From positions 1 through 62,981 of the forward strand of contig DATKSK010000041.1 of assembly GCA_035531755.1 (NCBI GenBank): 62,981 nucleotides of DNA. Direction: 5' to 3'. Positions 3,029-57,537 of the stretch are shown one piece after another. The translations under genes and the position numbers were made by a program. The first letter of the stretch is position 1. The number at the start of each line of letters is the position of its first letter. Under the pieces are notes generated by a model. The model worked only from the letters and a program-made list of their open reading frames with translations. It was not told the origin of the DNA and did no database searches. Origin of the DNA: Acidimicrobiales bacterium. Lineage in GTDB: Bacteria; Actinomycetota; Acidimicrobiia; Acidimicrobiales; UBA8190.

Positions 3029-4359
3029 GCCGGCACCGCCTCGGGAGCGACATCGGACGCGAGCACGTCGGCCAGTGCCGTCCAGGACTCATCGGCGCGG
3101 GCAGTCTCGGTGATGTCTTGGCACAGGAATCCGTCGATCTGCTCCTTCTGCCTGACAGCGCGGTCGACGAGCGGATTGGAGCCCGTGACGTAGGCGCCGA
3201 TCTCGATGAGGTCCTTGGCCTCACGGTATGCGGCCAGCAGGCGGCGGATCTCGCTGGTCAGTGACCGCTGCTGGCGCGTGAGGATGGCCGGCTCGACGCG
3301 CGAGATCGACTCGAGTACTTCGATGCTGGGGAAGTGGTTGGCGGTCGCCAACCGTCGCGACAGGACGATGTGGCCGTCGAGGAGAGAGCGGGCGGAGTCG
3401 GCGATCGGCTCGTTCATGTCGTCGCCTTCGACGAGGACCGTGTAGAGGCCGGTGATGCTTCCGGTCTCTGCCGCGCCGGCACGCTCGAGGAGCCTGGGCA
3501 TGAGCGTGAACACCGAGGGTGGGTACCCGCGCGTCGCCGGGGGCTCGCCGGCCGACAGTCCGACCTCTCGTTGCGCCATGGCGAAGCGCGTCAGGGAGTC
3601 CATCATCAAGACGACGTCCTTGCCCTGGTCGCGGAACCATTCCGCGATCCTCGTGGCAGTGAACGCCGCCCGGATCCGGACGAGAGCCGGCTCATCGGAG
3701 GTGGCGACGATCACGACCGAACGGGCAAGACCCTCCGGCCCGAGGTCGCGCTGGATGAACTCGTTGACCTCCCGCCCCCGCTCGCCCACCAGCGCGAGCA
3801 CCGACACCGATGCGTCGGTCCCGCGAGCCACCATCGAGAGCAGGCTCGACTTGCCGACACCCGATCCGGCGAAGATGCCGAGCCGCTGGCCGCGGCCGCA
3901 GGGAATGAGGGTGTCGACGGCCTTGATCCCGAGCGCCAGTTGGCGGTCCACCAATTCGCGTCGCAAGGGGTGGGGGGGAGCCCCGTCGATGCCGATCTCC
4001 TGCCATTCCGACAGCATCGGTCGGTCGTCGATGGGCCGGCCCAAACCGTCGAGCACCCGGCCGAGCAAGCCCTCCCCGACGACGACGGGCAGGGGCCGTC
4101 CGAGTGCCTCGACCGTGTCGCCGTAGCGCACGCCGCTCACGTCGCCCAGCGGCATGCAGGCGAGAGCCGATCCCTGGACCGCCACCACCTCGGCGTCGAG
4201 GACCCCGCCCCCCCGCCAGATCCGCACCGCCTCACCGACGGCCGCGGCGACGCCTTCGACCTCGATGCGCAGGCCGACCATGCGGGTGACCCGGCCGGTG
4301 CGTCGCGGTGCTACCGCCGCTTGCAACGATGCGTGCAGAGGGTGCGGAACCGTGGTCAT
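3025..4359 (-). CDS. fliI: Flagellum-specific export ATPase FliI
   Basis: This 444-residue F1-beta-like ATPase energises flagellar type III secretion at the cytoplasmic face of the basal body. The Walker A motif is GSGVGKS at residues 165-171, and the Walker B region is VVLMMDSLTRFAMAQRE, the form that separates FliI/SctN ATPases from F1-beta. The ATPase body includes GYPPSVFTLMPRLLERAG. The ATG at 4359 overlaps the fliH TGA (ATGA), which sets the start and removes about 29 spurious N-terminal codons present in the longest open frame. Length is normal for the family. Confidence 0.96.
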   Translation of the reverse strand: MTTVPHPLHASLQAAVAPRRTGRVTRMVGLRIEVEGVAAAVGEAVRIWRGGGVLDAEVVAVQGSALACMPLGDVSGVRYGDTVEALGRPLPVVVGEGLLGRVLDGLGRPIDDRPMLSEWQEIGIDGAPPHPLRRELVDRQLALGIKAVDTLIPCGRGQRLGIFAGSGVGKSSLLSMVARGTDASVSVLALVGERGREVNEFIQRDLGPEGLARSVVIVATSDEPALVRIRAAFTATRIAEWFRDQGKDVVLMMDSLTRFAMAQREVGLSAGEPPATRGYPPSVFTLMPRLLERAGAAETGSITGLYTVLVEGDDMNEPIADSARSLLDGHIVLSRRLATANHFPSIEVLESISRVEPAILTRQQRSLTSEIRRLLAAYREAKDLIEIGAYVTGSNPLVDRAVRQKEQIDGFLCQDITETARADESWTALADVLASDVAPEAVPA

Positions 4360-5003
4360 GCCGGCCCCCCCGTTCCCTGTCCGACGGACGTGATGAGGGC
4401 CCGGGCCCGCTCCATGGCCGGGCCGATCTGGGCGTCGATCCGGCACGGCCCGGCGTCGACGACGCAGCCCCCGACTTCCACGTCGGGGTCGACGACCACC
4501 TTGACGGTGGCGTCGGGAACGAGCGTCTGCAGCTCATCGGGGGTGATGGCGTCGTCGGGGTGGAGGCGCACCACGAGGTCCTCACCCCGCGGTACGAGCG
4601 CCACGGCCCGTTTGACGGCCTCGATGCTCACGGACGGCGTGAAGCTGATCTCACGGCCGAGGAGCGCCTCGGCCAGCTCGAACGCCAGCGCCACGGCCTC
4701 GTGCTGCGCCTGTGCCACCGCCGCCTCGCGTTGCAGGCTCGCCGACGCCGCCGCGGTGATGAGGGCGGCGGAGAGGCTGATCGCTCGCTCCGCCCTCGCC
4801 GCCTCGAGACCGGCGGCGGCGGCGGCGAGCCCCGCCTCGTACCCCTCCTGGTAGGCAGCCGCCCGTTCGCTGACGAAGGGGTCGACGGCCGGCGGCATGC
4901 TCCCGCTGGGGTCGAGCGCTTGGTGGCCGAAGGTCTCGGCGGCCGCCTGACGGCCGGCCTCGCCTCGCAGCACGCGGCTCATGACGCGGCTAGACGAACT
5001 CAT
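4356..5003 (-). CDS. fliH: Flagellar export stator protein FliH
   Basis: A 215-residue FliH homologue, the peripheral stator that binds FliI and tethers it to the C-ring. The N-terminal third is alanine- and glutamate-rich with a GYEAGLAAAAAG segment like the FliH glycine-repeat helices. The C-terminal domain has the FliH/V-ATPase-E pattern (AFELAEALLGREI, DLVVRLHPDD, VVVDPDVEVGGCVV). The ATG at 5003 follows AGGGGTGACG, the best ribosome binding site, and overlaps the end of fliG by 14 bp. A second in-frame ATG at 4982 lacks such a site. The stop overlaps fliI. Confidence 0.88.
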   Translation of the reverse strand: MSSSSRVMSRVLRGEAGRQAAAETFGHQALDPSGSMPPAVDPFVSERAAAYQEGYEAGLAAAAAGLEAARAERAISLSAALITAAASASLQREAAVAQAQHEAVALAFELAEALLGREISFTPSVSIEAVKRAVALVPRGEDLVVRLHPDDAITPDELQTLVPDATVKVVVDPDVEVGGCVVDAGPCRIDAQIGPAMERARALITSVGQGTGGPA

Positions 5004-5994
5004 CGTCACCCCTGGCCAGCACGATCTCGCCTGATGCCTCGAGCTCCCGGACGATCTTGACGATGGCGCTCTGGGCGGTCTCGACCTGCGACACCCGCGT
5101 GGGCCCGAGGAGGTCGACTTCCTCCAGGACGTCCTGCGCGGCGCGCTCGGACAGATTGCGGAGGAACTTGTCGCGAAAACCGTCCGGGACCGTCTTGAGT
5201 GCGGTGGCAAGATCCTTGGGGACGACGTTGCGCAGAATTCGCTGGAGCGTCCGGTCGTCGAGGTTGGCGATGTCGTCGAAGACGAACATCTCGTTGCGGA
5301 TCTGCTCGGCCAGCTCTGGGTCGCTCTGCTCCAGCTCGGCCAGGATCTGTTGCTCCGACGCGCGCTCGGTCTGATTGAGGATGGCCACGATGGACGCCAC
5401 ACCGCCGGTCTCGTTGGCCGTGGTCACTCCGGTCCGCAACACAGCAGCCAGCTTCTGCTCGAGGAACTCGGCGACCTGCTGGACGACGTCGGGTGAGATC
5501 CGCCCCATGGTGGCGATCCGCCGTGCAACCTCGCTCCGTGTCGATTCCTCGAGCTTGGCGATCACGTTGGCGGCAGAGTCCGCCGGCAGGTGCGACAGGA
5601 CGAGGGCGACGAGCTGGGGATGCTCGTTCCCCACGAAGCTGGCGATCTGCTGGGGATCGATCCGGTGGAGAAAGGAAAGGGGGTGCGAGTAGCTCGCTTG
5701 CACGAAGCGGTCCAGGACCTCCTCGGTCTTGGCGCTGCCGAGGCGCTCCCGGAGGAGCTTCCGGGCGACGTCCACGCCACCCTGCCCGACCTGGACGGTC
5801 GCCGTGGCATGCGTGGTGAACTCGTTGAGCACACCGCGCACCTCGTCGACTGCGAGAGTCGGGAGCGTGGCCAACGTCGACATGAGGTCGACGACTTCCT
5901 GTTCGCTCATGACCCTGAGCACCTTGGCAGCCCGACTGCTGTCGAGCTGCGCCAACACGACCGCCGCCTTCTGGGATCCGGTGAGGGTGGGCAT
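4990..5994 (-). CDS. fliG: Flagellar motor switch protein FliG
   Basis: This 334-residue rotor protein of the C-ring interacts with the stator and with FliF and FliM to generate torque and switch direction. Diagnostic features are the middle-domain EHPQ motif (VGNEHPQLVALVLSHLP), the MFVFDDIANLDDR segment, and the charged C-terminal torque helix (DGFRDKFLRNLSERAA). The N-terminal FliF-binding domain starts MPTLTGSQKAAVVLAQL. It begins 2 bp after the fliF stop. No stator genes (motA, motB) or fliM/fliN are in the window; they are presumably beyond the left edge. Confidence 0.96.
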   Translation of the reverse strand: MPTLTGSQKAAVVLAQLDSSRAAKVLRVMSEQEVVDLMSTLATLPTLAVDEVRGVLNEFTTHATATVQVGQGGVDVARKLLRERLGSAKTEEVLDRFVQASYSHPLSFLHRIDPQQIASFVGNEHPQLVALVLSHLPADSAANVIAKLEESTRSEVARRIATMGRISPDVVQQVAEFLEQKLAAVLRTGVTTANETGGVASIVAILNQTERASEQQILAELEQSDPELAEQIRNEMFVFDDIANLDDRTLQRILRNVVPKDLATALKTVPDGFRDKFLRNLSERAAQDVLEEVDLLGPTRVSQVETAQSAIVKIVRELEASGEIVLARGDDEFV

Positions 5995-5996
5995 TG

Positions 5997-7616
5997 TCAG
6001 CTACTCAACGTCTTCGTGTCCGACAGCCACGAGCGCAGCATGGTGGCGACGTCGTCGGGCTGGCTGTCGATGAAACGGTTGGCGTCGACCGCCTCCCGGG
6101 AGGACAGCACGTCGGGGACGACCGCCGGAAGCTGCCCGGTCGGCTCGTCGGCCCACGAGCGCGACAACGCGGCGAGCTCGGAGGGGCCCAGCACCTGAGC
6201 CGGCTGGGCGCGCCGCGCCTTGCGGGCGGAGCGCCACAGCAGGAACAGTGCGATGGCGATCACCAGGAAGACGACCCCGGTTCGGATCAGCGACGTCATG
6301 GCCTGCTTCTGTGCGGCCGTGGCCCCGGCCGCGGCGGCCTTGGCCGCCTGTTGGGCGCCGACGGTGTCGAAGGGCATCGAGCTGAAGGCCAGCTGATCGC
6401 CGCGGGCCGCGTCGATGCCGGCGGCGGCGGCCACCCCACCCTGCAGGGCGGTGAGGCTGAGTCCCTTGGGGATGGCCTTGGAGTTCACCAGCACCGCCAC
6501 CGACTGGTTGACGACGGTCCCCGGCGCCTGTTGGACGGTCTTGGTCTCCTGGTTCGTCTCGCACGTCTGCGTGTTCTGCGTGTTGACGTAGTTGCCGTTA
6601 CCGGTGCCCGTCGTGGCCCCACCGGGGGTCGTGGTCACGGTGGCCGGCGTGGTGGTCACGGTCCCCGCGGGCCCGCCCGGTGGCGTCCCGCTGCCCGTGT
6701 ACGACTGGTTGCTCTGCGACGTCTGGGTGCAGAAGCTCTGCGGCTGGCCCGTCGGGCCCGGGATGATGTTCTGGGTCGTGGTGGAGACCTGGTCGTAGGA
6801 GAGCGTGGCGTTGACCTGGACATCCGCATTGCTCTGCCCCAGGGCGGCGGCCAGGTACGCCTCGACCTTGGCTTGCACCCCCTGGTCGTAGGCGTCGGTC
6901 TGGCTGTTGGCGCCGCCTTCGCCCTGGGAGACGCCGGGCCCGGCAAGGAGGTTCCCGTTGGAGTCGGCCACCGTGACGCCGCTCGACGGCAGGTTGGGGA
7001 TGCTCGAGCCGACGAGGTGGACGATGGCCTGGACCTCGCCGTCGGTGAGCGTCTGGCCGGCTCGCATGGTCACGAGCACCGACGCCCCCGTCGGGGAGTT
7101 GTTGCTCAGCGCGAAGTCCTGATTGGCCGGCATGGCGATGTTCACCTGCGAGCTGGTCACGTTCTGAATCGAGTCGATCGTCTGCTCGAGCTCGCCTTGG
7201 AGCGCCTGCAGGTAGTCCGCCTGCTGGGTCATGTTGGAGGTGGTCACTCCCTCCTTGTCGAGCAGCGACAGTCCGACGGTGCTGGTGGCCGGCAGCCCTG
7301 CCTGCGCCAGCGTGATGCGCTCCTGATCGACGTCGCTGGCGGGAACCATGATCGTCGTGCCGTTGTCGGCCAGCTGGTACGGCACCTTGTCCGACGTGAG
7401 CTTGGAGACGACGTTCGCCGCATCGGCAGACTTCAGGCCGGTGAACAGTGGCGTGTAGTTGGGCTTCGCCGAAAAGGACATGAACACCGCGGCTCCGACG
7501 ACCAGCGCGATGGCCGCGACGACGGTGACAGCCTTCTGGCCGTATGTGAACTCCGACGCGAAGCGCTTCAGGCCGTCGCGGGCTCGGGTCATTTCGCTGG
7601 ACGGGACGAGTGCCAT
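5997..7616 (-). CDS. fliF: Flagellar MS-ring protein FliF
   Basis: This 539-residue membrane protein forms the MS ring that houses the export gate. A first transmembrane helix lies near residues 30-47 (VTVVAAIALVVGAAVFM). The ring-building motifs follow (YTPLFTGL, ERITLAQAGLP). A Ser/Thr/Gly/Asn-rich periplasmic insert spans about residues 260-360 and contains two cysteines. The second transmembrane helix is near residue 440 (GVVFLVIAIALFLLW), and a C-terminal cytoplasmic FliG-binding segment ends the protein. It starts 1 bp after the fliE stop, in the same transcription unit. Confidence 0.95.
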   Translation of the reverse strand: MALVPSSEMTRARDGLKRFASEFTYGQKAVTVVAAIALVVGAAVFMSFSAKPNYTPLFTGLKSADAANVVSKLTSDKVPYQLADNGTTIMVPASDVDQERITLAQAGLPATSTVGLSLLDKEGVTTSNMTQQADYLQALQGELEQTIDSIQNVTSSQVNIAMPANQDFALSNNSPTGASVLVTMRAGQTLTDGEVQAIVHLVGSSIPNLPSSGVTVADSNGNLLAGPGVSQGEGGANSQTDAYDQGVQAKVEAYLAAALGQSNADVQVNATLSYDQVSTTTQNIIPGPTGQPQSFCTQTSQSNQSYTGSGTPPGGPAGTVTTTPATVTTTPGGATTGTGNGNYVNTQNTQTCETNQETKTVQQAPGTVVNQSVAVLVNSKAIPKGLSLTALQGGVAAAAGIDAARGDQLAFSSMPFDTVGAQQAAKAAAAGATAAQKQAMTSLIRTGVVFLVIAIALFLLWRSARKARRAQPAQVLGPSELAALSRSWADEPTGQLPAVVPDVLSSREAVDANRFIDSQPDDVATMLRSWLSDTKTLSS

Positions 7617-7617
7617 G

Positions 7618-7914
7618 TCAGAATTGCATGTTCATGATGTCGGTGAAGGCGGCGACGCCCTTGTCGACCAGGGCCACCGTCACCTGCGTCTCCAACGAGG
7701 CCTGGGTCGCCTTGATCATGGCGTCGGTCACACTTCCTTGACCGGCGGCTGCTTGTGCCTCGGCCATCGATGCGGTGTTCTGGCTCTGCTGGACCTGGTC
7801 GACTGCCTGGGAGATCGATTGCGAGAAGCCACCACCCGAGCCGGCGGTCGCCCCCCCGGCCGGTGTCGGGGGAAGGGGCTGAATGGGCGGGATCGCGGGG
7901 ATCATGACCGTCAC
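7618..7914 (-). CDS. fliE: Flagellar hook-basal body protein FliE
   Basis: A 98-residue protein that links the MS ring to the rod. The helical C-terminus carries the FliE pattern (MIKATQASLETQVTVALVDKGVAAFTDIMNMQF, split here only for reading). The N-terminus is rich in Pro and Gly, a common feature of actinobacterial FliE. The GTG start overlaps the flgC stop (GTGA). Size, order flgB-flgC-fliE-fliF and the C-terminal motif agree. Confidence 0.93.
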   Translation of the reverse strand: MTVMIPAIPPIQPLPPTPAGGATAGSGGGFSQSISQAVDQVQQSQNTASMAEAQAAAGQGSVTDAMIKATQASLETQVTVALVDKGVAAFTDIMNMQF

Positions 7915-8315
7915 GTCCCCAACGTGAGCGCCGACTGGTAGGCGGTCTTGGCGTCTGCGAGCGCCGCGGTATTGGCCTGGAAGTCGGTCTGCGCCTGGAT
8001 CATGTCCACCATCTGCGAGCTGAGCTGCACGTCCGGCACACGCACCTCCCCCTTGGCATCGGCCTGGGGATTGGTCGGGTCGAACTGGATGATCCCGGTG
8101 GTGTCGCCCTCCTGGATGCCGGCCACGGTGACGCCGTCACCGACCTGGCCGGGCGTGGCGGTGGGGACGAACACGGGGGTCTGCTCCCCGTATGTGGCCT
8201 GGTCGGTCGGGGAAGTGTCATTCATGTTGGCGATGTTCCCCGCGACGGTGTTGAGCCACGTCTGGGCGGCATCGATGCCGGACCCCGAGATGCCGAGGCT
8301 CCCGAACAGGCTCAT
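7911..8315 (-). CDS. flgC: Flagellar proximal rod protein FlgC
   Basis: A 134-residue rod subunit. The N-terminal rod signature is SGIDAAQTWLNTVAGNIANM, and the C-terminal helix is VDMIQAQTDFQANTAALADAKT, the paired segments by which axial proteins assemble. Between them is the short FlgC D1 region (EQTPVFVPTATPGQVGDGV). ATGA overlap with the flgB stop indicates coupled translation. It is exported through the FliI/FlhA system. Confidence 0.95.
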   Translation of the reverse strand: MSLFGSLGISGSGIDAAQTWLNTVAGNIANMNDTSPTDQATYGEQTPVFVPTATPGQVGDGVTVAGIQEGDTTGIIQFDPTNPQADAKGEVRVPDVQLSSQMVDMIQAQTDFQANTAALADAKTAYQSALTLGT

Positions 8316-8656
8316 TGGAAGGTCCCGCCGGCGGCGCCCGAGATCAGGCGGAACTGGGCGTTGAGCATGTCGACCATGGTCTGGTACTGCAACGTCTCCT
8401 CCTGGCCGTTGACCAGCTGCTTGCCGGTGTCGACGTTGTTCCCGTCGGAGGCAGCGGTGGCGGGGTCGGCGGAGACTATGACGCTGGCGGTGCCGCCACC
8501 GGGTGCGTCGATGGCCTGCTGGAGGCTGGCTTCGAAGCTCACGTCCTGGGCGGTGTAGCCCGGCGTGTCAGCGTTGGCGAGATTGTTGGCGGTGGCCTGC
8601 TGCTGCTGTGCGACGCCGTCGACGGCGAACTGCAGCGCGTTCACGATCCCGTCCAT
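8312..8656 (-). CDS. flgB: Flagellar proximal rod protein FlgB
   Basis: A 114-residue rod subunit and the first gene of the minus-strand basal-body operon. The family signature QQQQATANNLANADTPGYTA is at residues 17-36, and the C-terminal axial helix contains QYQTMVDMLNAQFRLI. The ATG at 8656 is chosen because it follows GGGAGG at good spacing; the open frame runs much further upstream but that part is noncoding. Expression is probably driven by the sigma-28-like promoter about 120 bp upstream. Confidence 0.93.
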   Translation of the reverse strand: MDGIVNALQFAVDGVAQQQQATANNLANADTPGYTAQDVSFEASLQQAIDAPGGGTASVIVSADPATAASDGNNVDTGKQLVNGQEETLQYQTMVDMLNAQFRLISGAAGGTFQ

Positions 8657-8938: not shown

Positions 8939-11900
8939 GTGGTGCCGATGCATCAGCCCGTGCACCGCTCCCCCGCCACCATCATCATCCTCGCCTGGAA
9001 CGCGTGGAGCTCCACCGAGGACTGCCTCGAGTCGCTGCGACCCACACTGGGAGTGCGCGATCAGGTGGTGGTCGTGGACAACGGGTCGACCGACGCCACC
9101 CCCCGTCGGTTGACGCGATACCCGTGGATCGACGTCGTGACCAACGAAGAGAACCATGGCTTCGCACGTGGTTGCAACGACGGCGCCGCCATCGCCCGGA
9201 ACGACACTCTCGTCTTCTTGAACAACGACACCGTGCTGGCCGGGCGGTGGCTCGACCCGCTCATCGTCCCGTTCGACGAGGACCGCTCGGTCGGGGCCAC
9301 CGGCCCACGCTCGAACTTCGTCTCCGGGGCGCAGGTCGCCGAAGGGGCGTCCTACCTCCGTGGAGACATGGCGGGCATGCGGCGCTTCGCCCGGGCATGG
9401 GCCCAGGAGCACCGTTCGCAGGTGTCGGACACGGAGCGGCTGGTCGGGTTCTGCCTGGCGGTCCGGCGCAGCCTGTTCGAGGAGATCGGCGGCTTCGACG
9501 CCGGATACGGTATCGGCGGGTACGAGGACGACGACCTCTGCCGGCGGGTGTTGGCCTCGGGGCACCGCCTGCTCATCGCCCACGAGTCCTTCGTCCACCA
9601 CGACGGCCACCAGACCTTCGACGCCAACGGGCTCGACTGGTACGCAGAGCAGGAGACGAACCGGGGGCGCTTCGAGTCCCGGTTCGGCGCCGGCCGGTCC
9701 TCACGCGACGGCACGAGGGTCTCGGCGTGCATGATCACCAAGGATGAGGAGGCCAACATCGCCACCTGTCTGGCCTCGGTGGAGGGATTCGTCGACGAGG
9801 TGGTGGTCTACGACACCGGGTCGAGCGACGCCACCGTACGCGTTGCACGCGAGCTCGGGGCCACGGTCATCGATGGCCACTGGGACGACGACTTCTCCCG
9901 GGCCCGCAACGCGGCCCTGGAGCACTGCTCCGGGGACTGGATCGCCTGGCTGGACGCCGACGAGACGCTCGTGTGCGACGACGTCGCCGGTCTGCGCCGC
10001 CTTCTCGAGAACACCGCGCCCAACGTCGACGGCTTCTCCGTCCCGATCGACAACCTGACGGGGACGGGTGTCGGGGCCGGGTTCACGCATTCGGCCTGCC
10101 GCCTGTTCCGGCGGGCACGGTGTGAATGGACGGGCCGGCTCCACGAGCAGATCGCCGGGCGCGGCGACCACCGCGGCATCGAGCAGGTGAAGTTGGAAGG
10201 GGCCAGGATCCTGCACACGGGCTACCTCGACGAGGCCATGCGAACCCGAGACAAGACCGAGCGGAACCTGCGGGTCGCCCAGGCCGAGGTGGCTGCGGCG
10301 GATACCTGGGACATGGGGTTCTCGCTCACGAGCCTCGGCCGTTCGTTCCTGACGGCCGGGCGCGTCCAGGAGGCGTTCGACTCCTGCCGGGACGCGCTCG
10401 AGCACACCACCAACCTCATCACCCGCCGGCTGGCCACACGGACCGCCATCGAGGCGCTGACCATCCTCGGGGACTACGACGGGGCGCTGGCGTGGATCGG
10501 TGACCTGCGAGGGATCTCGGCGATGACGGCACAGGCGGACATCTCCGAGGGCAGGGTCCGGCTCGCCCAGGGAGAGTTCCAATTGGCGCTCGACCTGTTC
10601 GAGCGGGTCGAGTCCCGCCAATTCGACGAGGACGGCTTCGAGGTGAGCCGTCACACGCTCGCCGTGGACCGGGCCAAGGCGCTCGAAGGCCTCCACCGGC
10701 CGAGCGATGCCGCCGACGTCCTGCTCGAGGTGCTGGTCGACCAGGGAGTGATCGACGTCCACCTCGCCATCCTCGTCGACTGCCTGAACCGGGCGGGGCG
10801 CTCCTACGACGAGCTGGCCGCTGCCATACCGCCAGGCAAGGCGCCGCAGTTCCTGGCCCAGGTCCTCCAGCTCATCCCCGAAACGGCTGACGCGGTGTTG
10901 GAGGCGTGCTTCCGGACGATGGACGATGGACGGACCGTGCTCGCCACGGCGGCGACACTGGCCTGTCGTCTCCCGGTCGACCGGGCGCTGGCGTGGTCCG
11001 CACGGATGCGTGCCGCCGGTTTCGCCACCTCCTGCCCGCTCGTGGCCATCGCCACCGGCTCGGCCTCTCCGCCGGTGCGCGCCCGGGCCGCGGCCACCGC
11101 GGTCCGGGCCTTCGGGGATACCCGGGGGCGCGACGCCTTCGTGGCGGCGCTCGGTGCGGCCCGGCCGCTCGAGCGCGACGCCATCCTCACCGAGGCCGCC
11201 GCCCTGTGTCCCGAGCTCCTCGCCGTGGCCGAGTCGGCGCAACAGCAGCACCCCGCCCCGGCCGGCACCGACCTCCCCGATCCGCGGGTCAGCATCGTGA
11301 TCCCGTGCTTCAACGGGGCCGGGCTGACACTCAACTGCCTCCAGAGCCTGCAGGCCACGACTGAGGCGGCCCTCTACGAGGTGATCCTCGTCGACAACGG
11401 CTCCACCGACGCCACGGTCAAGCTGGCCGGCGCCTCCGACGCACGCTTCTGCGTCGTGCGCAACGAGGAGAACACCGGCTTCGGTCCGGCCTGCAACCAA
11501 GGAGCCGCCCTGGCGCGCGGTGAGTTCATCCTCTTCCTCAACAACGACACCGTCCTGCTCCCCGGGTGGCTGGAGCCCCTCGTCGCCGCCCTCGACGACG
11601 ACCCGATGCTGGCGGCGGTGCAGCCCAAGCTGCTCTACCCCGACGGGCGCCTGAACGACGCCGGTGGCCTGGTCTTCGCTGCGGGCCAGCCCTGGGTCTA
11701 CGGCAAGGGACGCCCCGAGCCCGACGCCCCCGAGTTCTCCTGCCGCCGCGCGCCGGACTATGCGTCGGGTGCATGCCTCCTCGTCCGTCGGACCGCGTTC
11801 GAGGACGTCGGTGGCTTCGACGACCGCTACGCACCGGCGTACTACGAGGACACCGACCTGTCCTTCGCCTTGCGGGCGGCGGGCTGGAGGGTGCTCTTCG

Positions 11901-13324
11901 AGCCGGCGTCGAAGGTCGTCCACGTCGAGGGGGGCACGGCCGGGACCGACGTCACCCAGGGCCTCAAGGTCTACCAGGAGCGCAACGCCGCCAAGTTCGC
12001 CGAGAAGTGGGCGCACGAGCTCGTGCACCGGCCCGCGGTTCGACCCGACCATGTGGAGCGGTGGGCACACCGGCCACAGGGCGGTTTCGGCCCCGGCGAA
12101 CGACTGCCCGTCCGGGCCGCGCCGTCGGTGGACGTCGCCCGCACGGCGGCCTCCGAGGCCCGGTCCGTGCTCGTCCTGGACCCGTTCATGCCGGTCTTCG
12201 ACCGGGCGTCGGGAGGGCTGCGCACCTTCACCTTGCTCCAATGCCTGCGCGACGCGGGCCATGCCGTGACCTTCTATGCACTGGCCGGTGGGAGCAGGAC
12301 CTACGCCGACGCCGTGGGTCGCCTGGGGATCCCGTGTTTCGGCGGGGACCGGCGCGAGGCGGTGGACCACGGGCCCGGCCACGCGTCGGCGGTCTGGCCC
12401 ACCTTCGAGGCCCTGTTCAGCCGCCGCCATTTCGATGTCGTGGTCGTCAGCCCCTGGACGACGGCGGAAGGTGTCATCGAGCACGTGCGCCGGCTTGCGC
12501 CCGAGGCCACGCTCGTCGTGGACACCAATGACGTCCACTTCGTCCGCCTCCAGCGGGCCGCCATGCTCACCGGGGGTTCCACGTCGGAGGTCGCCGAGGC
12601 CAAACGGCGCGAGCTGGCCGTCTACCGCCAGGCCGACCGGATCGTGTGCGTCACCGACGACGACGCCGAGGCCGTGCGGTCGGAGATTCCCGACGCCGAT
12701 ATCGTCATCGTGCCGAACGCCCATGCCGAGGTGGCGTGCGGACCGGGTTTCGAGCAACGCACGGGTTGCCTCTTCGTCGGCAACTTCAACCACCCGCCCA
12801 ACGCCGATGCACTGTCGTGGTGGAAGCAGGAGATCGGGCCGGCGCTCTCCGCACGGCACCCCGGAGCCGAGCTGACCGTGATCGGCAACGACCCGCGGGG
12901 AGAGGCCGCGACTTTCGCGGGTCCCGGCATCACCGTCGCCGGCACGGTTCCCTCCACCGTGCCGTTCCTCCACGAGGCCCGGGTGTCGGTGGCACCCCTG
13001 CGCTACGGGGCAGGGATGAAGGGCAAGGTCGGCGAAGCCCTCGCCACGGGGCTCCCCGTGGTCCTCACCTCGATCGCCGCCGAGGGCATGGGGCTCGTCG
13101 ACGGCGAGCACGTGCTCGTCGCCGACACCGCCGAGGCCTTTGCGGACGCCGTGCACCGGCTCTACACCGACCGCGCCCTGTGGGAACGGCTGCGGCAAGC
13201 GGGCCGTGCCCATGTCGCCAAGCACTTCGGCATCGACCGGATGCGCCAAGGCGTCCGGGACATGCTCCCGGACGTCCCGGCGTCGGCACCTGCCCGCGGA
13301 CGCGCGGTGGCAGCGTCCGCCTGA
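8939..13324 (+). CDS. Four-module glycosyltransferase (GT2-GT2-GT2-GT4) in the flagellar island
   Basis: A 1461-residue protein with four sugar-transfer modules. The first GT2 (about residues 10-250) has ATIIILAWNAW, VVVDNGSTDAT and LNNDTV. The second GT2 (about 262-480) has ACMITKDEEANI, VVYDTGSSDAT and WLDADE, and is followed by a TPR-like helical stretch to about residue 760. The third GT2 (about 782-1030) has VSIVIPCFNGAGLT, VILVDNGSTDAT and FLNNDTV. The fourth (about 1075-1455) is GT4-like, with IVCVTDDDAEAV, CLFVGNFNHPPN and APLRYGAGMKGKV. It lies between the flgB operon and flhA, which suggests glycosylation of flagellin or another exported surface protein. Start codons GTG 8939, GTG 8942 and ATG 8948 are all possible; none has a strong ribosome binding site. 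Confidence 0.9.
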   Translation: MVPMHQPVHRSPATIIILAWNAWSSTEDCLESLRPTLGVRDQVVVVDNGSTDATPRRLTRYPWIDVVTNEENHGFARGCNDGAAIARNDTLVFLNNDTVLAGRWLDPLIVPFDEDRSVGATGPRSNFVSGAQVAEGASYLRGDMAGMRRFARAWAQEHRSQVSDTERLVGFCLAVRRSLFEEIGGFDAGYGIGGYEDDDLCRRVLASGHRLLIAHESFVHHDGHQTFDANGLDWYAEQETNRGRFESRFGAGRSSRDGTRVSACMITKDEEANIATCLASVEGFVDEVVVYDTGSSDATVRVARELGATVIDGHWDDDFSRARNAALEHCSGDWIAWLDADETLVCDDVAGLRRLLENTAPNVDGFSVPIDNLTGTGVGAGFTHSACRLFRRARCEWTGRLHEQIAGRGDHRGIEQVKLEGARILHTGYLDEAMRTRDKTERNLRVAQAEVAAADTWDMGFSLTSLGRSFLTAGRVQEAFDSCRDALEHTTNLITRRLATRTAIEALTILGDYDGALAWIGDLRGISAMTAQADISEGRVRLAQGEFQLALDLFERVESRQFDEDGFEVSRHTLAVDRAKALEGLHRPSDAADVLLEVLVDQGVIDVHLAILVDCLNRAGRSYDELAAAIPPGKAPQFLAQVLQLIPETADAVLEACFRTMDDGRTVLATAATLACRLPVDRALAWSARMRAAGFATSCPLVAIATGSASPPVRARAAATAVRAFGDTRGRDAFVAALGAARPLERDAILTEAAALCPELLAVAESAQQQHPAPAGTDLPDPRVSIVIPCFNGAGLTLNCLQSLQATTEAALYEVILVDNGSTDATVKLAGASDARFCVVRNEENTGFGPACNQGAALARGEFILFLNNDTVLLPGWLEPLVAALDDDPMLAAVQPKLLYPDGRLNDAGGLVFAAGQPWVYGKGRPEPDAPEFSCRRAPDYASGACLLVRRTAFEDVGGFDDRYAPAYYEDTDLSFALRAAGWRVLFEPASKVVHVEGGTAGTDVTQGLKVYQERNAAKFAEKWAHELVHRPAVRPDHVERWAHRPQGGFGPGERLPVRAAPSVDVARTAASEARSVLVLDPFMPVFDRASGGLRTFTLLQCLRDAGHAVTFYALAGGSRTYADAVGRLGIPCFGGDRREAVDHGPGHASAVWPTFEALFSRRHFDVVVVSPWTTAEGVIEHVRRLAPEATLVVDTNDVHFVRLQRAAMLTGGSTSEVAEAKRRELAVYRQADRIVCVTDDDAEAVRSEIPDADIVIVPNAHAEVACGPGFEQRTGCLFVGNFNHPPNADALSWWKQEIGPALSARHPGAELTVIGNDPRGEAATFAGPGITVAGTVPSTVPFLHEARVSVAPLRYGAGMKGKVGEALATGLPVVLTSIAAEGMGLVDGEHVLVADTAEAFADAVHRLYTDRALWERLRQAGRAHVAKHFGIDRMRQGVRDMLPDVPASAPARGRAVAASA

Positions 13325-13464
13325 CGCCGGCCACGACGCGCCGCGACCACACCCGGCCCGCGGCCGCCGGGGCCGCGTTCCCGACACGTTCGCGCGGTGT
13401 CGGGCGAAAACCGGTGCGGAGAGTGGTTTCCCAGGCCAGGGGCCCTGTCGTCCGGCCCGAATCC

Positions 13465-13492
13465 TCAAGCAGGCCGCTACTTCCGCCGATAC
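13465..13492 (+). promoter_or_regulatory. Sigma-28-like promoter of flhA
   Basis: TCAAG at 13465-13469 and GCCGATAC at 13485-13492 are 15 bases apart, about 80 bp before the flhA start and in the 246-bp gap after the glycosyltransferase. The -10 half matches the sigma-28 consensus at seven of eight positions. It has the same layout as the flgB promoter. The rest of the gap shows no gene. Confidence 0.72.
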
Positions 13493-13565
13493 CTGAGCAC
13501 GACGCCAGGACGGCGCGGAACAGACGGCCACGGATCGGCCGATCCCCGTACGCTCGTCCCGTGAG

Positions 13566-13601
13566 GTGTCATGTCGAACCGGCGTGTCATGTCGAACCGG
13601 C
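13566..13601 (+). repeat. 18-bp tandem duplication across the flhA start codon
   Basis: Two perfect copies of an 18-bp unit (13566-13583 and 13584-13601) each contain TCATGTCG, so flhA has two in-frame ATG codons (13571 and 13589) with identical surroundings. The duplication adds MSNRRV to the N-terminus without breaking the frame. Confidence 0.9.
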
Positions 13602-15637
13602 TCGGAATGGTCGGCGTCCCCGCCGCGGTCATCGCCATCGTGGTGATGCTCGTCGTGCCATTGCCGACGTTCGTCCTCGACGTCCTCATCAGCGTGAACA
13701 TCGCCGGGGCCATGGTCGTGCTGCTCATGACCATGCACGTCAAGAAGCCGCTCGACTTCTCGGTCTTCCCCGCAGTGCTCCTCGTCGCCACGCTGTTCCG
13801 CCTGGCACTCAACGTGTCGGCGACACGGCTGGTCCTGCTCCACGGCTACGCCGGATCGGTCATCAACAGCTTCGGGAATTTCGTCGTGGGCGGACAGCTC
13901 ATCGTCGGCCTCGTCGTCTTCCTGATCCTCATCGTGATCCAGTTCGTCGTCGTCACCACGGGTGCCGGACGGGTCGCGGAGGTCGCCGCCCGTTTCACCC
14001 TCGACGCCATGCCCGGAAAGCAGATGGCGATCGATGCCGACCTGAGCTCCGGGCTGATCGACCAGCACGAGGCCAAGCGCCGGCGCCAGGAGACCGCTGA
14101 CGAGGCCGACTTCTACGGGGCCATGGACGGTGCAGCCAAGTTCGTCCGGGGTGACGCCATCGCGGCCATCGTCATCACCGCCATCAACCTGATCGGTGGC
14201 CTGGCCATCGGCCTCGCCCAGCGGCACCTGTCGATCACCGACGCCACCCACACCTACAGCCTCCTGAGTGTCGGTGACGGTCTCGTCTCGCAGATCCCGG
14301 CCCTGCTGCTGTCGATCTCGACCGGGCTCGTGGTCACCAGAGCCGCCACCGACGACCAGGACTTCGGCACCGACCTCATCGGCCAGGTCCGTCGCCAGCA
14401 CCGGGCCATCAAGATCGCCGGGGTCGTCATGGCAGGCATGGCCATCGTGCCGGGGCTACCGCATCTCGCCTTCCTGATCGTGGGCGGCCTGCTGTGGTTC
14501 ACCGGTGACCGCGTGGGAGCGGCCGTTCACACCGAGTCCCTCGAAGCCTCGGACGGGCCGGACATCGTCACGGTCGCCCCCGACAGCCCCCAGGCGCTGG
14601 CGGCCGACATGCGGGTGGAGGCACTCGAGCTCGAGCTGTCGGCGACCCTCGTCGACCTGGTCGACGAGGCCAAGGGCGGGGACCTGCTCGAGCGGGTGAA
14701 GGGCCTGCGCCGCAAGCTCGCCACCGAACGCGGGCTGATCATCCCCCCCGTGCGCACCCGGGACAACGTGCACCTCGACAACGACTCGTACGCGATCCGG
14801 CTGCACGGCGTGGAAGTGGCCACGGGTACCGCGCCGGCGGGTCGCTTCCTCGCCATCGGAGGCGGGCTCGACCTGGTGCCCGGCGAGTCCGTCGTGGAGC
14901 CGGTGTTCGGGCTCCCGGCCAAGTGGGTGCCGGCCGAGCTGCGCCAACAGGCCCTCGTGGCCGGGGCCACCGTCATCGACCGGTCCTCGGTCATCACCAC
15001 CCACCTCGGCGAGGTGGCCAGCCGCCATGCCGGGCAGCTGCTGTCGGCCCAGCAGGTGAAGACGCTGCTCGACTCGGTGAAGGGCACCGACCCGGCGGTG
15101 ATCGAGGAGATGGGGGCGGCCCAGGTGTCGCTCACCGACCTCCATCGGGTCCTGTGCGGTCTGCTGGCCGAGGGGGTCGTCATCCGCGACCTCGTACGCG
15201 TCATCGAGGCGGTCACCGAGCAGGCTCGCCAGGCCAAGGAGCCCGAGGCCCTGCTGGAGGCCGCCCGCCGGGCGCTCGGGCCGGCCATCACCGCCGCCTA
15301 CGCGAAGGACGGCACCCTCCCGATCATCAGTCTCGATGCCCGCTTCGAACGAGAGCTGGCCGACGCTGTCCGCCCCGGGGAGTCCGGCACGGTCCTGGTC
15401 CTCGAGCCCGACGTCGTCGAGACGCTCGTCCGTGAGGTGGGTGCGATCGCGCGCCAGGCCGAGGAGAACAACCGCGAGGCCGTCCTCATCTGCGCGTCGC
15501 GCCTGCGCCCGTCGCTCCGTCGCCTGCTCTCCCCTGCCCTGCCACGCCTCGGCGTGCTGTCCGTCAATGAGCTCGGCCCACAGGTCAAGCTCGAGCGCAT
15601 AGGAGTCGTCAGTGTCACCCCAGCTGAAGTCGTTTGA
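13571..15637 (+). CDS. flhA: Flagellar export gate protein FlhA
   Basis: This 688-residue protein forms the cytoplasmic ring and membrane part of the export gate. About the first 320 residues hold eight transmembrane helices with the FHIPEP-family segments LLVATLFRLALNVSATRLVL and GDAIAAIVITAINLIGGLAIG. The C-terminal cytoplasmic domain follows (GTAPAGRFLAIGG, DRSSVITTHLGEV, LLCASRLRPSLRRLL-like end). Protons and chaperone-substrate complexes pass through this gate. It probably heads an operon with flhF-like, a small membrane protein and flbD. fliP, fliQ, fliR and flhB, often next to flhA, are not in the window. Confidence 0.96.
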   Translation: MSNRRVMSNRLGMVGVPAAVIAIVVMLVVPLPTFVLDVLISVNIAGAMVVLLMTMHVKKPLDFSVFPAVLLVATLFRLALNVSATRLVLLHGYAGSVINSFGNFVVGGQLIVGLVVFLILIVIQFVVVTTGAGRVAEVAARFTLDAMPGKQMAIDADLSSGLIDQHEAKRRRQETADEADFYGAMDGAAKFVRGDAIAAIVITAINLIGGLAIGLAQRHLSITDATHTYSLLSVGDGLVSQIPALLLSISTGLVVTRAATDDQDFGTDLIGQVRRQHRAIKIAGVVMAGMAIVPGLPHLAFLIVGGLLWFTGDRVGAAVHTESLEASDGPDIVTVAPDSPQALAADMRVEALELELSATLVDLVDEAKGGDLLERVKGLRRKLATERGLIIPPVRTRDNVHLDNDSYAIRLHGVEVATGTAPAGRFLAIGGGLDLVPGESVVEPVFGLPAKWVPAELRQQALVAGATVIDRSSVITTHLGEVASRHAGQLLSAQQVKTLLDSVKGTDPAVIEEMGAAQVSLTDLHRVLCGLLAEGVVIRDLVRVIEAVTEQARQAKEPEALLEAARRALGPAITAAYAKDGTLPIISLDARFERELADAVRPGESGTVLVLEPDVVETLVREVGAIARQAEENNREAVLICASRLRPSLRRLLSPALPRLGVLSVNELGPQVKLERIGVVSVTPAEVV

Positions 15638-17057
15638 AGGCCCTGACGTCCAGCGGCTGCTGGACGAGGTCCGCCGCGAGGTCGGTTCGGACGCCAAGAT
15701 CAGCGGCGCCGAGAAGATCCGCGTCGGCGGAGTGGCCGGGTTCTTCGCCAAGGAGCACTACCGGGTGGTCGTGGAGGTGCCCGCAGCTGTCATCGAGCCC
15801 GGCGTCTCCCCGTCGCCCACGGCACAGCGCAGCCGCCAGCCCGCGCACGCTCGCCCGAACCGGCGCACGCGCCGCCGCGGTCCCGTGAGCGGTCCGGTGA
15901 GCGCTCCCGCGCCGGCCCCCACCGCGGTCCCCATGGACGAGCCCGATCCCACGGCCCAGATACCGGCCGTCGGGGAGGAGCGGACCGACATCTTCACGAC
16001 CCTGGCCGACGCCACCGACGACGTGACCGACATCGTCGGCATGCACCAGTCCCCCGGCATGGCGACCCCGGTCACCGCGGGGCCGGCTCGAGCGGCGGTG
16101 GGCGGGCCGGCCACGGGCGCGCCAGCCGCGGGCCCGCCCGCCACGGCCGCGGTCGCGAGCACGCAACCGGGCGACGGCAGCGACTCCTTCGACGCCGTGT
16201 TGTGCCGGATCGCCACCACCCTCGACGCGACGCCGACCATCGACGACACCACCTCCGACTACCTCGGGGCGGCGCGCGCCGCAGGGCACAGCCGGGCCGT
16301 AGCGGGCGGGGGTGGGCCGCGGGACGTCACCTCCGGCACCATCGCCAGCGAGGCGGCCATGTTCCTCGCCACCAACGGCCCCGAGTCGGACGGAGCCACG
16401 GTGGCCGCCCTGCGCCGCGTCGGGCTCGACGAGGCCGCCGTGGGCTACGTCGCCGAAGGGCTGCGACTCGGGGGCGTGCTCGAGGCGCTCCTGCTCGACG
16501 CCCTGGGGCGCCTGGTCGAGGCCCCGCCGCTTCCCCGTCGCGCCGGCAGCCTGCTCGTCGTGGTCGGTGCGGGGCTGCGGGCCCGCGAGCTCGCCGGCGC
16601 CGTGGCCGTCGAGGTCGGGGGCGATCCGGCGGAGGTGCCCGTCGCCTCCCTCGACCCGCAAGCCGACACCGTGGTGCCGGGCCCGCTGCTCGTGCGCTCG
16701 GCCGACGAGGCCGCCGAACTCGCACCGGGTTGGCGTCGCAACCAGACGGCCGCCGTGGTCGTCGTCGACGCCCCGCTCGCCGGTGGCCACCTGTCCTGGG
16801 CAGCCCACGTCATCTCCTCGCTGCGGCCCACCGCCGTGTGGGGCCTCGTCGACTCCACGTGTAAGGCCGAGGACATCACCGCCTGGGCGGACGGCCTCGG
16901 TGGGATCGATGCCCTCGCGCTCGAGAACGTCGACGCCACCGTGAGCCCGGCCGCCGCGCTCGGCACCGGGATCCCGGTAGCCCGGCTCGACGGCCGGCCC
17001 GCCAGCGCAGCTCGCTGGACGGCCACCATCGTCGATCGGATAGACCCATGCACGTAA
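15612..17057 (+). CDS. FlhF-like protein with degenerate GTPase domain
   Basis: A 481-residue protein in the flhF position. The N-terminus (SFEGPDVQRLLDEVRREVGSDAKISGAEKI) matches the FlhF B-domain pattern (x-A-l-x-xVR-x-elG-dAvIl). A Pro/Ala-rich linker covers about residues 60-200. The C-terminal half keeps the order of an SRP-type GTPase, but the P-loop is absent: LLVVVGAGLRARELAG replaces GPTGVGKTTT, and the TKLDE specificity motif is replaced by LENVDAT. It therefore probably does not hydrolyse GTP and may act only as a placement scaffold. GTG 15612 follows AGGAG and overlaps the last 26 bp of flhA. Confidence 0.75.
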   Translation: MSPQLKSFEGPDVQRLLDEVRREVGSDAKISGAEKIRVGGVAGFFAKEHYRVVVEVPAAVIEPGVSPSPTAQRSRQPAHARPNRRTRRRGPVSGPVSAPAPAPTAVPMDEPDPTAQIPAVGEERTDIFTTLADATDDVTDIVGMHQSPGMATPVTAGPARAAVGGPATGAPAAGPPATAAVASTQPGDGSDSFDAVLCRIATTLDATPTIDDTTSDYLGAARAAGHSRAVAGGGGPRDVTSGTIASEAAMFLATNGPESDGATVAALRRVGLDEAAVGYVAEGLRLGGVLEALLLDALGRLVEAPPLPRRAGSLLVVVGAGLRARELAGAVAVEVGGDPAEVPVASLDPQADTVVPGPLLVRSADEAAELAPGWRRNQTAAVVVVDAPLAGGHLSWAAHVISSLRPTAVWGLVDSTCKAEDITAWADGLGGIDALALENVDATVSPAAALGTGIPVARLDGRPASAARWTATIVDRIDPCT

Positions 17058-17344
17058 GACGCCCGGAGCTCGTATTGGCCGGCGCGGTGGCCATCTGCCT
17101 GCCGATGGTCCCCGGGGTTCTGAACGGCAACATCACCGCCGTCACCGCCGGGACGAGGCTGCTCATCGCCATCGTCATCTGCTGGGTCGGCGGGTCGATC
17201 CTCACCTCGATCATCGACCGCTATTCGACCGAGTCACGACGCAGCCACGTCATGAAGATGCTGGCGAACGCGCGTCGCACGGGTCCGGCCGACGGGGACC
17301 CCGGGACACCGCGCGGCGGCCCGTCAGGGGAGGCTGAGCGATGA
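17048..17344 (+). CDS. Small two-TM membrane protein in the flhA-flbD operon
   Basis: A 98-residue protein with two hydrophobic helices: AGAVAICLPMVPGVLN near residues 11-26 and RLLIAIVICWVGGSILTSII near 37-56. A charged cytoplasmic tail (STESRRSHVMKMLANARR) follows. It overlaps the end of the FlhF-like gene by 10 bp and its stop overlaps flbD. I do not recognise the family. The position suggests a flagellar accessory role, perhaps working with FlbD or the export gate, but nothing in the sequence proves this. Confidence 0.75.
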   Translation: MHVRRPELVLAGAVAICLPMVPGVLNGNITAVTAGTRLLIAIVICWVGGSILTSIIDRYSTESRRSHVMKMLANARRTGPADGDPGTPRGGPSGEAER

Positions 17345-17646
17345 TCGTGTTGACACGGTTCCACAGTGGTGACCGCATCGCGGTCAACTCCGAGTTGATC
17401 GAACGCGTCGAGGAGACGCCCGACACCGTCATCACGCTCACGAACGGCACCAAGCACGTGGTGCAGGAGACGATCGACGAGATCGTGGAGAGGGTCCAGG
17501 CAGTGAAGGCGACGACGCTGGCACTCGCCACCCGGATGGTGGAGGACGGCGCGACCGTCCGCCCCGCCCATCTTCGTGTCGTCCACGACGCCGAGCATCA
17601 CGCCCCGGGTGACCACTCGGTGGACCCGCTCGCCCCGGGACCCTGA
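17341..17646 (+). CDS. flbD: FlbD/SwrD-family flagellar protein
   Basis: A 101-residue protein of the small FlbD (SwrD/YlzI) family, not the Caulobacter transcription factor of the same name. The signature is MIVLTRFHSGDRIAVNSELI, then IERVEETPDTVITLTNGTKH and a VVQETIDEIVERV helix. In Bacillus, SwrD raises flagellar torque. The usual family length is about 60-75; the C-terminal 30 residues here are a polar extension. It overlaps the preceding gene by 4 bp and is the last gene of the plus-strand flagellar run, converging on the sipW-like gene. Confidence 0.9.
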   Translation: MIVLTRFHSGDRIAVNSELIERVEETPDTVITLTNGTKHVVQETIDEIVERVQAVKATTLALATRMVEDGATVRPAHLRVVHDAEHHAPGDHSVDPLAPGP

Positions 17647-17691: not shown

Positions 17692-19488
17692 TCAGGACAC
17701 CGAGCGCAGGGCCTCGACGTGGAACGTCAGGTCCGCCGGCCGGTCCGGGTCGTCGATGGACCAGCGGGCGCGGTCGGGACCAGGCTCAGCGCCGCAGCGG
17801 TACACGGCGCTGCCGTATTCGACGTAGTAGGCGTGCCCGTCGGCGTGCTCGAGCTCGAGGACCATGCAGTCGTAGCGCCGGGCCAGACGGGCAAGCGCGT
17901 CGAATGTTCCCACGTCCACGACCCGACCGGCATTGGCCGCCGGGCTCGAGTACACCGTGATCAGGTCATGGCCGAGCGTTGCTCGGATGCGGGCCGGCTG
18001 GTCCAATCGCCGGCGGCGCAGGGTCCACCTCCACCCGACGAGGGTGGCCACGAGGGCGGCGAGCACCCCGCCGATCCCGACGCGGCGGGCCGTCGTGACG
18101 GCGATCGAACGACCGAGGATCGCCATGTGGGCCGGCGCCCGGGCCGGGAGCCCGACCGACCCGGCGAGCTCGGGGGTCAGCTGCGGGAAGACGGCGGGGG
18201 TGCCACCCGGGCTGGACGAAAGCAGGTTGAGCTCCTGGCCGCTCATCTGGAAGGTGAGCGGGGGGGCGAACGAGTCGCTGACCCGGGCCCCGGCGAGCGA
18301 CCCGCCGACGTGCACCGCCGGCGTCACGACGATGTCCGTCGTCCCGAGCGACATCCCCGTCTCGGAGGTGAACGCCTTCTCGAGCGCGGCGATCTTCGAG
18401 AGGTTCACGGCGATGATCGCGCTCGCGGTCCGGCCGGAGAAGTGGACGGGGGCCACGGCGGCCAATTGCCCGCTCCACCCCCCCGGACCCTGGAGCGCTG
18501 CTCGCGCGCCGATGGTGCCGGCCACGGTGGTCCGAGCGCGCGTCGAGGCGCTCGGCGAGACCGCGTCGAACGCATAGTGCACTGCCACGTGCAGTGTCCC
18601 GACGAGGCGCAGGAACACGGGGTCCCCGGTGACCACCGACCCGGTCGGGTACGCGGTCCCGGGGGACGCCCTCGCGGTGTACGAGAACCTGATGTGCTGC
18701 TCGTAGGCCGCAACGCGCTCGGTCGGCCGGGAGGTCGGCTGCACCCACGCCACCACGGTCAGCAGGCCGAGAATCCCGGCCACGGCGAGCGGGACGACGA
18801 CCGGCGCGCACCCCACCCGCGCCTCGCTGGGGGCGGCATGCTTCGGGCCGGACCCCGAGGCGGAGCGACCCGTCCTCACGGCCGCCACCCCAGCGCCGGA
18901 GCCGGCCGCCGCCGCGCCACCGGCCGCCGCCGCGCCACCAGCCACCGCCGCGCCACCGGCCGCCGCCGCGCCACCGGCCGCCGCCGCGCCACCGGCCACA
19001 TCGGCGCCCGACCGGGCGCCGTGACCCCCCGTCCGTCGGCGCGATGCCCTGCCGCCGAGGACGCCGAAGGCGACCAGGAAGAACGCCAGGCCTGCGAGGC
19101 CGATCGGGGAACGGACCCACCCGAGGACGGTGCCGGCTTGGGGAATGCGAGCCCACAGCTGACCCTTGATGACCGACGCCGGGAGCCGCACCGGGTCGAG
19201 GAAGTGGTTGTGGTCACCCTTGAAGGTGAACAGGCCGCCGTGCTCCGCCACGATGCGGTGGAGCACGACGATGTGGAGGAGCGGACTGTGGTATCCGACG
19301 ATGTCGCCGACATGGTAAGCCGCGTTCGGGACGATGATGGCGAGGTCCCCGGTGTGGAACCTCGGGAGCATGCTCACCCCGTGCGTGGTGACCAGCGTCA
19401 CCTCGCCGGTGGCCAGCGCCACGATGAGCGCGATGCTGGTCACCGTGACCAGGGTGGCGCCGATGCGTCGAATCCGTCGGCCGCCCAT
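17692..19488 (-). CDS. SipW-type signal peptidase I fused to DUF5305-like domain
   Basis: A 598-residue membrane protease. Residues 1-145 form an S26B (ER/archaeal-type) signal peptidase: a TM helix near 12-27, the serine in GVSMLPRFHTGD (Ser39), HRIV with His77 in place of the lysine of bacterial LepB, GDHNHF, and a second TM helix near 126-143. An Ala/Gly run (about residues 162-195) is encoded by an 18-bp repeat. A DUF5305-like ectodomain with TM helices near 225 and 470, and a basic tail, complete it. SipW processes TasA/camelysin-type proteins; the secreted protein gene directly upstream (minus strand, 66-bp gap) is the likely substrate. The fusion in one chain is unusual. Confidence 0.85.
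   Translation of the reverse strand: MGGRRIRRIGATLVTVTSIALIVALATGEVTLVTTHGVSMLPRFHTGDLAIIVPNAAYHVGDIVGYHSPLLHIVVLHRIVAEHGGLFTFKGDHNHFLDPVRLPASVIKGQLWARIPQAGTVLGWVRSPIGLAGLAFFLVAFGVLGGRASRRRTGGHGARSGADVAGGAAAAGGAAAAGGAAVAGGAAAAGGAAAAGSGAGVAAVRTGRSASGSGPKHAAPSEARVGCAPVVVPLAVAGILGLLTVVAWVQPTSRPTERVAAYEQHIRFSYTARASPGTAYPTGSVVTGDPVFLRLVGTLHVAVHYAFDAVSPSASTRARTTVAGTIGARAALQGPGGWSGQLAAVAPVHFSGRTASAIIAVNLSKIAALEKAFTSETGMSLGTTDIVVTPAVHVGGSLAGARVSDSFAPPLTFQMSGQELNLLSSSPGGTPAVFPQLTPELAGSVGLPARAPAHMAILGRSIAVTTARRVGIGGVLAALVATLVGWRWTLRRRRLDQPARIRATLGHDLITVYSSPAANAGRVVDVGTFDALARLARRYDCMVLELEHADGHAYYVEYGSAVYRCGAEPGPDRARWSIDDPDRPADLTFHVEALRSVS
18903..19002 (-). repeat. 18-bp tandem repeat coding for the Ala/Gly linker
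   Basis: Five near-identical 18-bp units of the form ggccgccgccgcgccacc lie inside the signal peptidase gene and code for GGAAAA repeats between the protease and the DUF5305-like part. Copy number could vary without a frameshift. Confidence 0.85.
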
Positions 19489-57270: not shown

Positions 57271-57537
57271 CTATCTGCCGGTGCGCTCGCGGTGCTTGCA
57301 CCCTGGCCAGCAGCAGGGCCGACGCTGGCCTTCCTCCAGCTCCTCCTGGGTCCGGCGAATGCGGCGTTCTCGGGTCATCTCCTGCTTGGCATCCTCCACC
57401 CAGCAGATGAACTCGTTGCGGGCCAGAGGCGTGATGTCCTTCCAGGCATCGAGTGCCGTGGGATTGGCGATCAGCGCCATGCGCAGATCTCCTGGAAGTT
57501 CGTGCACCACCCCACCGGGCACTCGCGGGCTGCTCAC
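57271..57537 (-). CDS. YdeI/OmpD-associated family protein (short form)
   Basis: A protein of about 88 residues. LPGDLRMALIANPTALDAWK, then PLARNEFICWVEDAKQEMTR and RRIRRTQEELEEGQR, match the C-terminal YdeI/OmpD-associated domain (L-x-A-L-x-x-n-p-x-A, WI-x-xAK-x-x-TR-x-RRI). A Cys-rich basic end (CCWPGCKHR) could bind zinc. GTG 57537 is the chosen start, but the frame continues upstream without a stop into the IS110 remnant, so the true start is uncertain and the gene could be truncated. Confidence 0.7.
   Translation of the reverse strand: MSSPRVPGGVVHELPGDLRMALIANPTALDAWKDITPLARNEFICWVEDAKQEMTRERRIRRTQEELEEGQRRPCCWPGCKHRERTGR

Follow-up and report, generated by a model that had tools for sequence, protein, structure and literature searches.

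The 62,981-nucleotide stretch of an Acidimicrobiales bacterium analysed here (contig DATKSK010000041.1 of assembly GCA_035531755.1; hereafter the window) carries at 8939..13324 on the plus strand a single open reading frame (ORF) of 1461 amino acids, located between a divergent flgB-fliI group and flhA. This gene probably encodes a cytoplasmic flagellin O-glycosyltransferase, akin to GmaR of Listeria monocytogenes and extended into a multi-step enzyme. Its helical block, which resembles tetratricopeptide repeats (TPR), would bind cytosolic flagellin ahead of export. The second of its four glycosyltransferase (GT) modules, M2, would add the first sugar, an N-acetylhexosamine by analogy with GmaR, to Ser or Thr of a short flagellin made up of domains D0 and D1 only, and modules M1, M3 and M4 on the same chain would add up to three further sugars from nucleotide-sugar donors.

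The listed start codon is GTG, and the true start could lie a few codons 3′ of it. The G+C content at the three codon positions (0.72/0.51/0.90) marks 8939..13324 as the coding frame; taken with the domain matches it excludes both a chance ORF and an overlapping minus-strand gene at 9701-14401. A Pfam scan found three GT2 stretches (PF00535, E 4e-72) and one GT4 stretch (PF13692, E 3e-22; PF13439, 8e-8), which confirms the first-pass annotation in its description of three GT2 modules and one GT4 module on one chain, each with recognisable motifs. From the N-terminus these are M1 (GT2 of GT-A type, about residues 8-250, 8960..9688; Pfam, motifs and predicted fold), M2 (GT2, 255-455, 9701..10303; GmaR/SunS homology and motifs), the TPR-like helical solenoid (456-775, 10304..11263; Pfam and structure model), M3 (GT2, 778-1040, 11270..12058; Pfam and trees) and M4 (GT4 of GT-B type, 1070-1450, 12146..13288; Pfam and motifs). 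M1 contains VVVDNGSTD (44-52), LNND (94-97) and YEDDDL (195-200); M2 contains YDTGSSD (291-297), LDADE (338-342), HE (402-403) and HTGY (426-429); M3 contains LVDNGSTD (817-824), LNND (867-870) and YYEDTDL (968-974). The motifs of M4 are MKGKVGEALATGLPVV. This last module resembles part of TIGR03087, with a score far under the cut-off of that model, and the specific NCBIfam identities MftF, TIGR04283 and TIGR03087 were all rejected, every score being under its curated cut-off.

GmaR is the best match of M2 in the PDB, both by phmmer (5.6e-29) and in a profile search (5.7e-54) in which SunS ranks next (6.2e-30). The motifs DTGSxD, DAD, HE and HxGY of M2 are invariant or nearly so among 41 aligned relatives. 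The AlphaFold2 model, which covers residues 1-775 with a mean pLDDT (per-residue confidence) of 91.8, reveals a solenoid of helix pairs after M2, its helices spanning residues 431-770. The TPR-like stretch that had been noticed between modules two and three is thus borne out by the model; Pfam matches it weakly in this protein and above the cut-off in homologue L091 (TPR_1, 39.3 bits against a Pfam cut-off of 27.8). In structure searches M2 with the first helices resembles the S-glycosyltransferases SunS and ThuS (Z about 25-26); the match to SunS has Z 26.4, at 4.8 Å over 288 residues. SunS and ThuS modify Cys residues of bacteriocins, and differ from the present protein in being single glycosyltransferases without a flagellar link. 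The GT entry of GmaR was not listed by Foldseek against the PDB, and is possibly newer than the copy searched.

GmaR glycosylates flagellin with N-acetylglucosamine (GlcNAc), and its TPR region is proposed to bind flagellin; it consists of GT, TPR, linker and antirepressor domains (PMC9638930). Three features of its GT part are found here: GT2 homology with the corresponding motifs (DTGSTD, DAD, HEQ, HxGYL and RN in GmaR), TPR-type helices following the transferase, and linkage to flagella. We propose M2 as the initiating flagellin transferase and the helical block as the flagellin-binding part. Unlike the Listeria protein, which has one GT and a C-terminal antirepressor domain, the 1461-residue protein has a GT2 module in front and a GT2-GT4 pair behind, and the PDB matches listed include none to the antirepressor part. 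A protein that was GmaR-like in both senses, acting as flagellin transferase and, through its helical region, as regulator of flagellar genes, would fit the shared plan of GT plus helices and the bifunctionality of GmaR (PMC9638930); we regard it as extremely improbable, since the 60 PDB matches listed for the profile include the GT chain of GmaR (22ao/22ap) and SunS-type helices and no antirepressor chain (MogR was not searched for), and since two further GT modules follow the helical block.

In the AlphaFold2 model the fold of M1 matches GalNAc-T2 (Z 22.7), and the structure search returned polypeptide N-acetylgalactosaminyltransferases at Z about 22; M1 is 37% identical to M3. Its nucleotide-binding, DxD-like and base motifs are all kept, with at most conservative changes, in the 1461-residue protein and in relatives L084, L085, L092 and L096. 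Among 25 relatives whose M1 was aligned, most have lost these motifs and kept those of M2, from which we conclude that M2 is the conserved activity. M1 is thus probably active in the protein described here and a pseudo-enzyme in many members, as judged by its motifs. A GT-A-like N-terminal module devoid of the motifs was seen in L086, L088-L091, L093, L094, L097-L100, L113, L114, L116, L121, L123, L128 and L131; such modules are candidate pseudo-glycosyltransferases fixed ahead of an active GmaR-like core. The same pattern bears on an unlikely yet serious alternative, namely a flagellin glycosyltransferase in which only some modules work: M2, perhaps with M3 or M4, would be active, M1 would serve in acceptor binding or packing, and the glycan would be one to three sugars long. 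The loss of the M1 motifs in most relatives argues for it, as do core-only proteins of about 540-600 residues, which suffice beside flagellin in Cellulomonas and its kin. The retention of all three M1 motifs here and in the four relatives named above, together with that of the M3 motifs here, speaks against it.

The link to flagella extends across genomes. We sampled 248 genomes of the same order, taking as core a match to M2 plus TPR at E<=1e-30 and detecting FlhA by PF00771. FlhA is present in 43 of the 44 genomes with the core versus 14 of the 204 others (Fisher 1e-34, uncorrected for relatedness), and the sole FlhA-less genome with the core is 67% complete. Thirteen of the 14 genomes with M1 (E<=1e-40) are flagellated, the fourteenth being the same 67%-complete genome. 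Synteny was examined at 80 loci of M2-core relatives from a scan of named genomes, among them Acidimicrobiia, Dactylosporangium, Planosporangium, Kineococcus, Cellulomonas, Sanguibacter and some Firmicutes. A flagellar gene is found at 62 of these loci and flagellin at 53, with a median gap of 377 bp; among the best 47 loci, 42 likewise have a flagellar gene, and the five without are contigs of less than 9 kb. Eight ORFs adjoining relatives' copies proved to be flagellin by Pfam, and other genes near such copies encode DegT aminotransferase, FdtA, sulfotransferase, methyltransferases and further glycosyltransferases. Where a locus on a long contig lacks flagellar genes, it belongs to the more distant matches, such as those in Armatimonadetes, Aneurinibacillus and Thermoleophilia. 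With flagellar queries, no flagellar gene was found near the distant core-like proteins L145, L158 (Aneurinibacillus), L136, L141, L161 (the last three from Armatimonadetes and kin) and L152 (Thermoleophilia); it is possible that such proteins have other acceptors.

Two acceptors had been suggested for this gene, flagellin and a TasA-like protein. The first is well supported by the homology of M2 to GmaR, by co-occurrence with flhA and by flagellin being the usual next gene in relatives; for the second we found no support beyond the shared window, the association not having been systematically tested. More broadly, the target might be the nearby TasA-like secreted protein, a surface polysaccharide or a lipid-linked glycan, with the flagellar location incidental. 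A TasA/camelysin-like ORF (19555-19947) and a signal peptidase I-like protein (17692-19488) do share the window, and relatives of M3-M4 stand in surface-glycan loci of non-flagellated genomes; the M1-M2-TPR half, however, goes together with flhA and flagellin in Acidimicrobiia as well as in other Actinomycetota and has GmaR as its nearest solved relative, so that we consider a non-flagellin target highly improbable.

The flagellin of this genome is 278 residues long, begins with MSSLVVNTN and is therefore without room for D2/D3 domains. In an alignment of relatives' flagellins, Ser and Thr make up 22-27% of the middle stretch. Maf was set aside as this genome's flagellin transferase because PF01973 matched neither the 1461-residue protein nor any other in the genome, with the proviso that the controls matched archaea only and the sensitivity for Maf is unproven.

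The core is accompanied by varying modules. The four-module order is common to the window protein, G001 (63% identical), G049 and G098, and a similar order occurs in G059/L086. Elsewhere the core stands alone (the Cellulomonas type noted above), behind a GT2 module, between two GT2 modules (L084, L085), with two GT4-type stretches (L083), as GT2-core-methyltransferase-GT2 (L092) or as GT4-GT4-core in Clostridia (L140). A protein of 2569 residues (L087, 9176-16882) surrounds the same core with five GT2 stretches and one GT4; on its contig, which is shared with L037, flagellin is about 1 kb distant. Four-module enzymes had been called rare, a description that holds only in part: multi-GT fusions to the core occur repeatedly in Acidimicrobiia and also outside this class, and a single chain can contain as many as six GT modules.

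The C-terminal modules vary between close relatives. In the M3 tree the window protein, G001 and G049 are grouped (support 95/97). On the core this clade is rejected by the approximately unbiased (AU) test (p 0.015, an optimistic value because the groups were chosen after seeing the first tree), and in the core tree the window protein sits with G001, L083, L084, L085, L088 and G013. A core AU test of the window protein with G001, L084, L085 and G013 was uninformative, as L083 and L088 had wrongly been excluded from the named set. The conflict between the core and M3 trees suggests that C-terminal modules have been exchanged between relatives. M3-M4 also occurs as free GT2-GT4 proteins, of which about half belong to genomes that lack flagella; there the genes beside them encode a GDP-mannose dehydratase-type epimerase, a sulfotransferase, an ABC-2 transporter and an initiating sugar transferase. 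Independent M3-M4 proteins in surface-glycan loci are what characterises a surface-polysaccharide GT2-GT4 didomain, a likeness that concerns the C-terminal half only. It had been predicted that a flagellar role would be disfavoured if most homologues belonged to polysaccharide loci in the absence of flagella; the M1-M2-TPR half does not show this distribution, and the flagella-less relatives of M3-M4 point to a graft rather than a different target. In the flagellated genome G103 the two halves are encoded apart, M1-M2-TPR (829 residues) divergently from fliC and M3-M4 (58% identical) by a gene of its own adjoining a sugar aminotransferase; this natural split of the fusion is consistent with cooperation of the two halves but is not proof of it. 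The 1461-residue protein has the appearance of a flagella-bound half (M1 and M2-TPR) fused to a GT2-GT4 pair of the surface-polysaccharide kind (M3-M4).

Several points weigh against a multi-step flagellin transferase. The pTM (predicted template modelling score) of 0.68 makes the relative placement of domains in the AlphaFold2 model uncertain, and the best TPR match in the protein itself is sub-threshold (16.6 bits, E 0.0085). The core is missing from 14 of the 57 flagellated genomes of the order, and the lack of correction for relatedness applies to the co-occurrence counts given above. The genome's own flagellin gene sits on another contig (C54), which also holds fliD, fliS, fliW, flgK and a second flagellin-type protein, probably flgL. 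In most relatives M1 has degenerated catalytically, so that a structural role is possible for it even here, and because M3-M4 relatives occur without flagella, the C-terminal half might be interchangeable or have its action elsewhere. A multi-step flagellin transferase still accounts best, in our estimation, for the kinship of M2 and the flagellar synteny. A further idea, which we advance tentatively and with some doubt, is that the protein may be a one-chain assembly line for a flagellin glycan, in which a constant GmaR-like core reads flagellin, swapped C-terminal glycosyltransferases rewrite the glycan between lineages, and module content matches glycan length and composition.

Other known systems share parts of this design. 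In Clostridioides difficile, GT1 and then GT2 put GlcNAc and two rhamnoses on flagellin; as in our protein, GT2-family enzymes adjoining fliC build a flagellin glycan stepwise, but there GT1, GT2 and GT3 are separate proteins, one with a methyltransferase domain (type B; PMC5207246). FlmG, whose N-terminal domain binds flagellin (PMC7591256), and Maf are likewise cytoplasmic and modular, with a flagellin-binding domain that confers specificity (for Maf-1 a TPR domain, as cited in PMC13317340); they transfer nonulosonic acids, and both are likened here by their descriptions in the literature. The streptococcal pathway for serine-rich repeat adhesins (dGT1, GalT2, Gly) is also a sequential chain of glycosyltransferases on a protein acceptor (PMC5207161), but it comprises six genes, has an adhesin as acceptor and is without a GmaR-like core.

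The flagellar-island location recognised in the first-pass annotation is confirmed by the neighbouring genes. On the minus strand are flgB, for a rod protein (8312..8656, the divergent neighbour), flgC (7911-8315), a fliE-like ORF (7618-7914), fliF (5997-7616), fliG (4990-5994), fliH (4356-5402) and fliI (3025-4446), the products FlgB, FlgC, FliF, FliG, FliH and FliI being confirmed. On the plus strand flhA, for the flagellar export gate (13571..15637; PF00771, E 5e-242), is followed by a divergent FlhF-like ORF (15612-17057) and an FlbD-like ORF (17341-17646), both named by reading and position. Nothing convincing was found 5′ of the 1461-residue gene in the way of a sigma-28-like promoter, the only matches to GCCGATAA having one mismatch (37 observed versus 21.6 expected). 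Adjoining fliI at 1479-2678 (minus strand) is a protein in which an NlpC/P60 domain is fused to an SLT lytic transglycosylase domain; it may be a peptidoglycan enzyme that serves rod insertion. At the end of the flagellar group, where one might expect a FliK-type gene, is an ORF at 1-1482 (minus strand) whose N-terminal part is rich in Pro, Ala and Thr and which matches a polysaccharide-lyase model (PF14099, E 3e-9). The signal peptidase I-like protein at 17692-19488 (minus strand; 598 residues, TIGR02228 above cut-off, DUF5305 sub-threshold) and the adjoining secreted TasA/camelysin-like ORF of 130 residues (19555-19947, minus strand, named by reading) form a SipW/TasA-type pair next to the flagellar genes. 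An apparently partial ORF at 57271-58344 (minus strand) matches an IS110 transposase model (E 5e-20, under cut-off).

There are precedents both for flagellin transferases that have a TPR-type binding part (GmaR, FlmG, Maf) and for flagellin glycans built stepwise (C. difficile type B). In the limited open-access literature searched, which says little on flagellin glycosylation in Actinomycetota, we found no GmaR-like core fused to exchangeable modules of the GT2, GT4 and methyltransferase kinds. Glycoengineering seeks few-enzyme routes to a defined protein O-glycan. If a constant core does work with exchangeable modules, it would become testable whether the sequence of the glycan is readable from, and rewritable by, the modules of one protein, and swaps of the end modules would be a simple means of altering the flagellar sugar coat. 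With this gene, a candidate flagellin glycosylation system has been identified in the acidophilic, mostly uncultured Acidimicrobiia.

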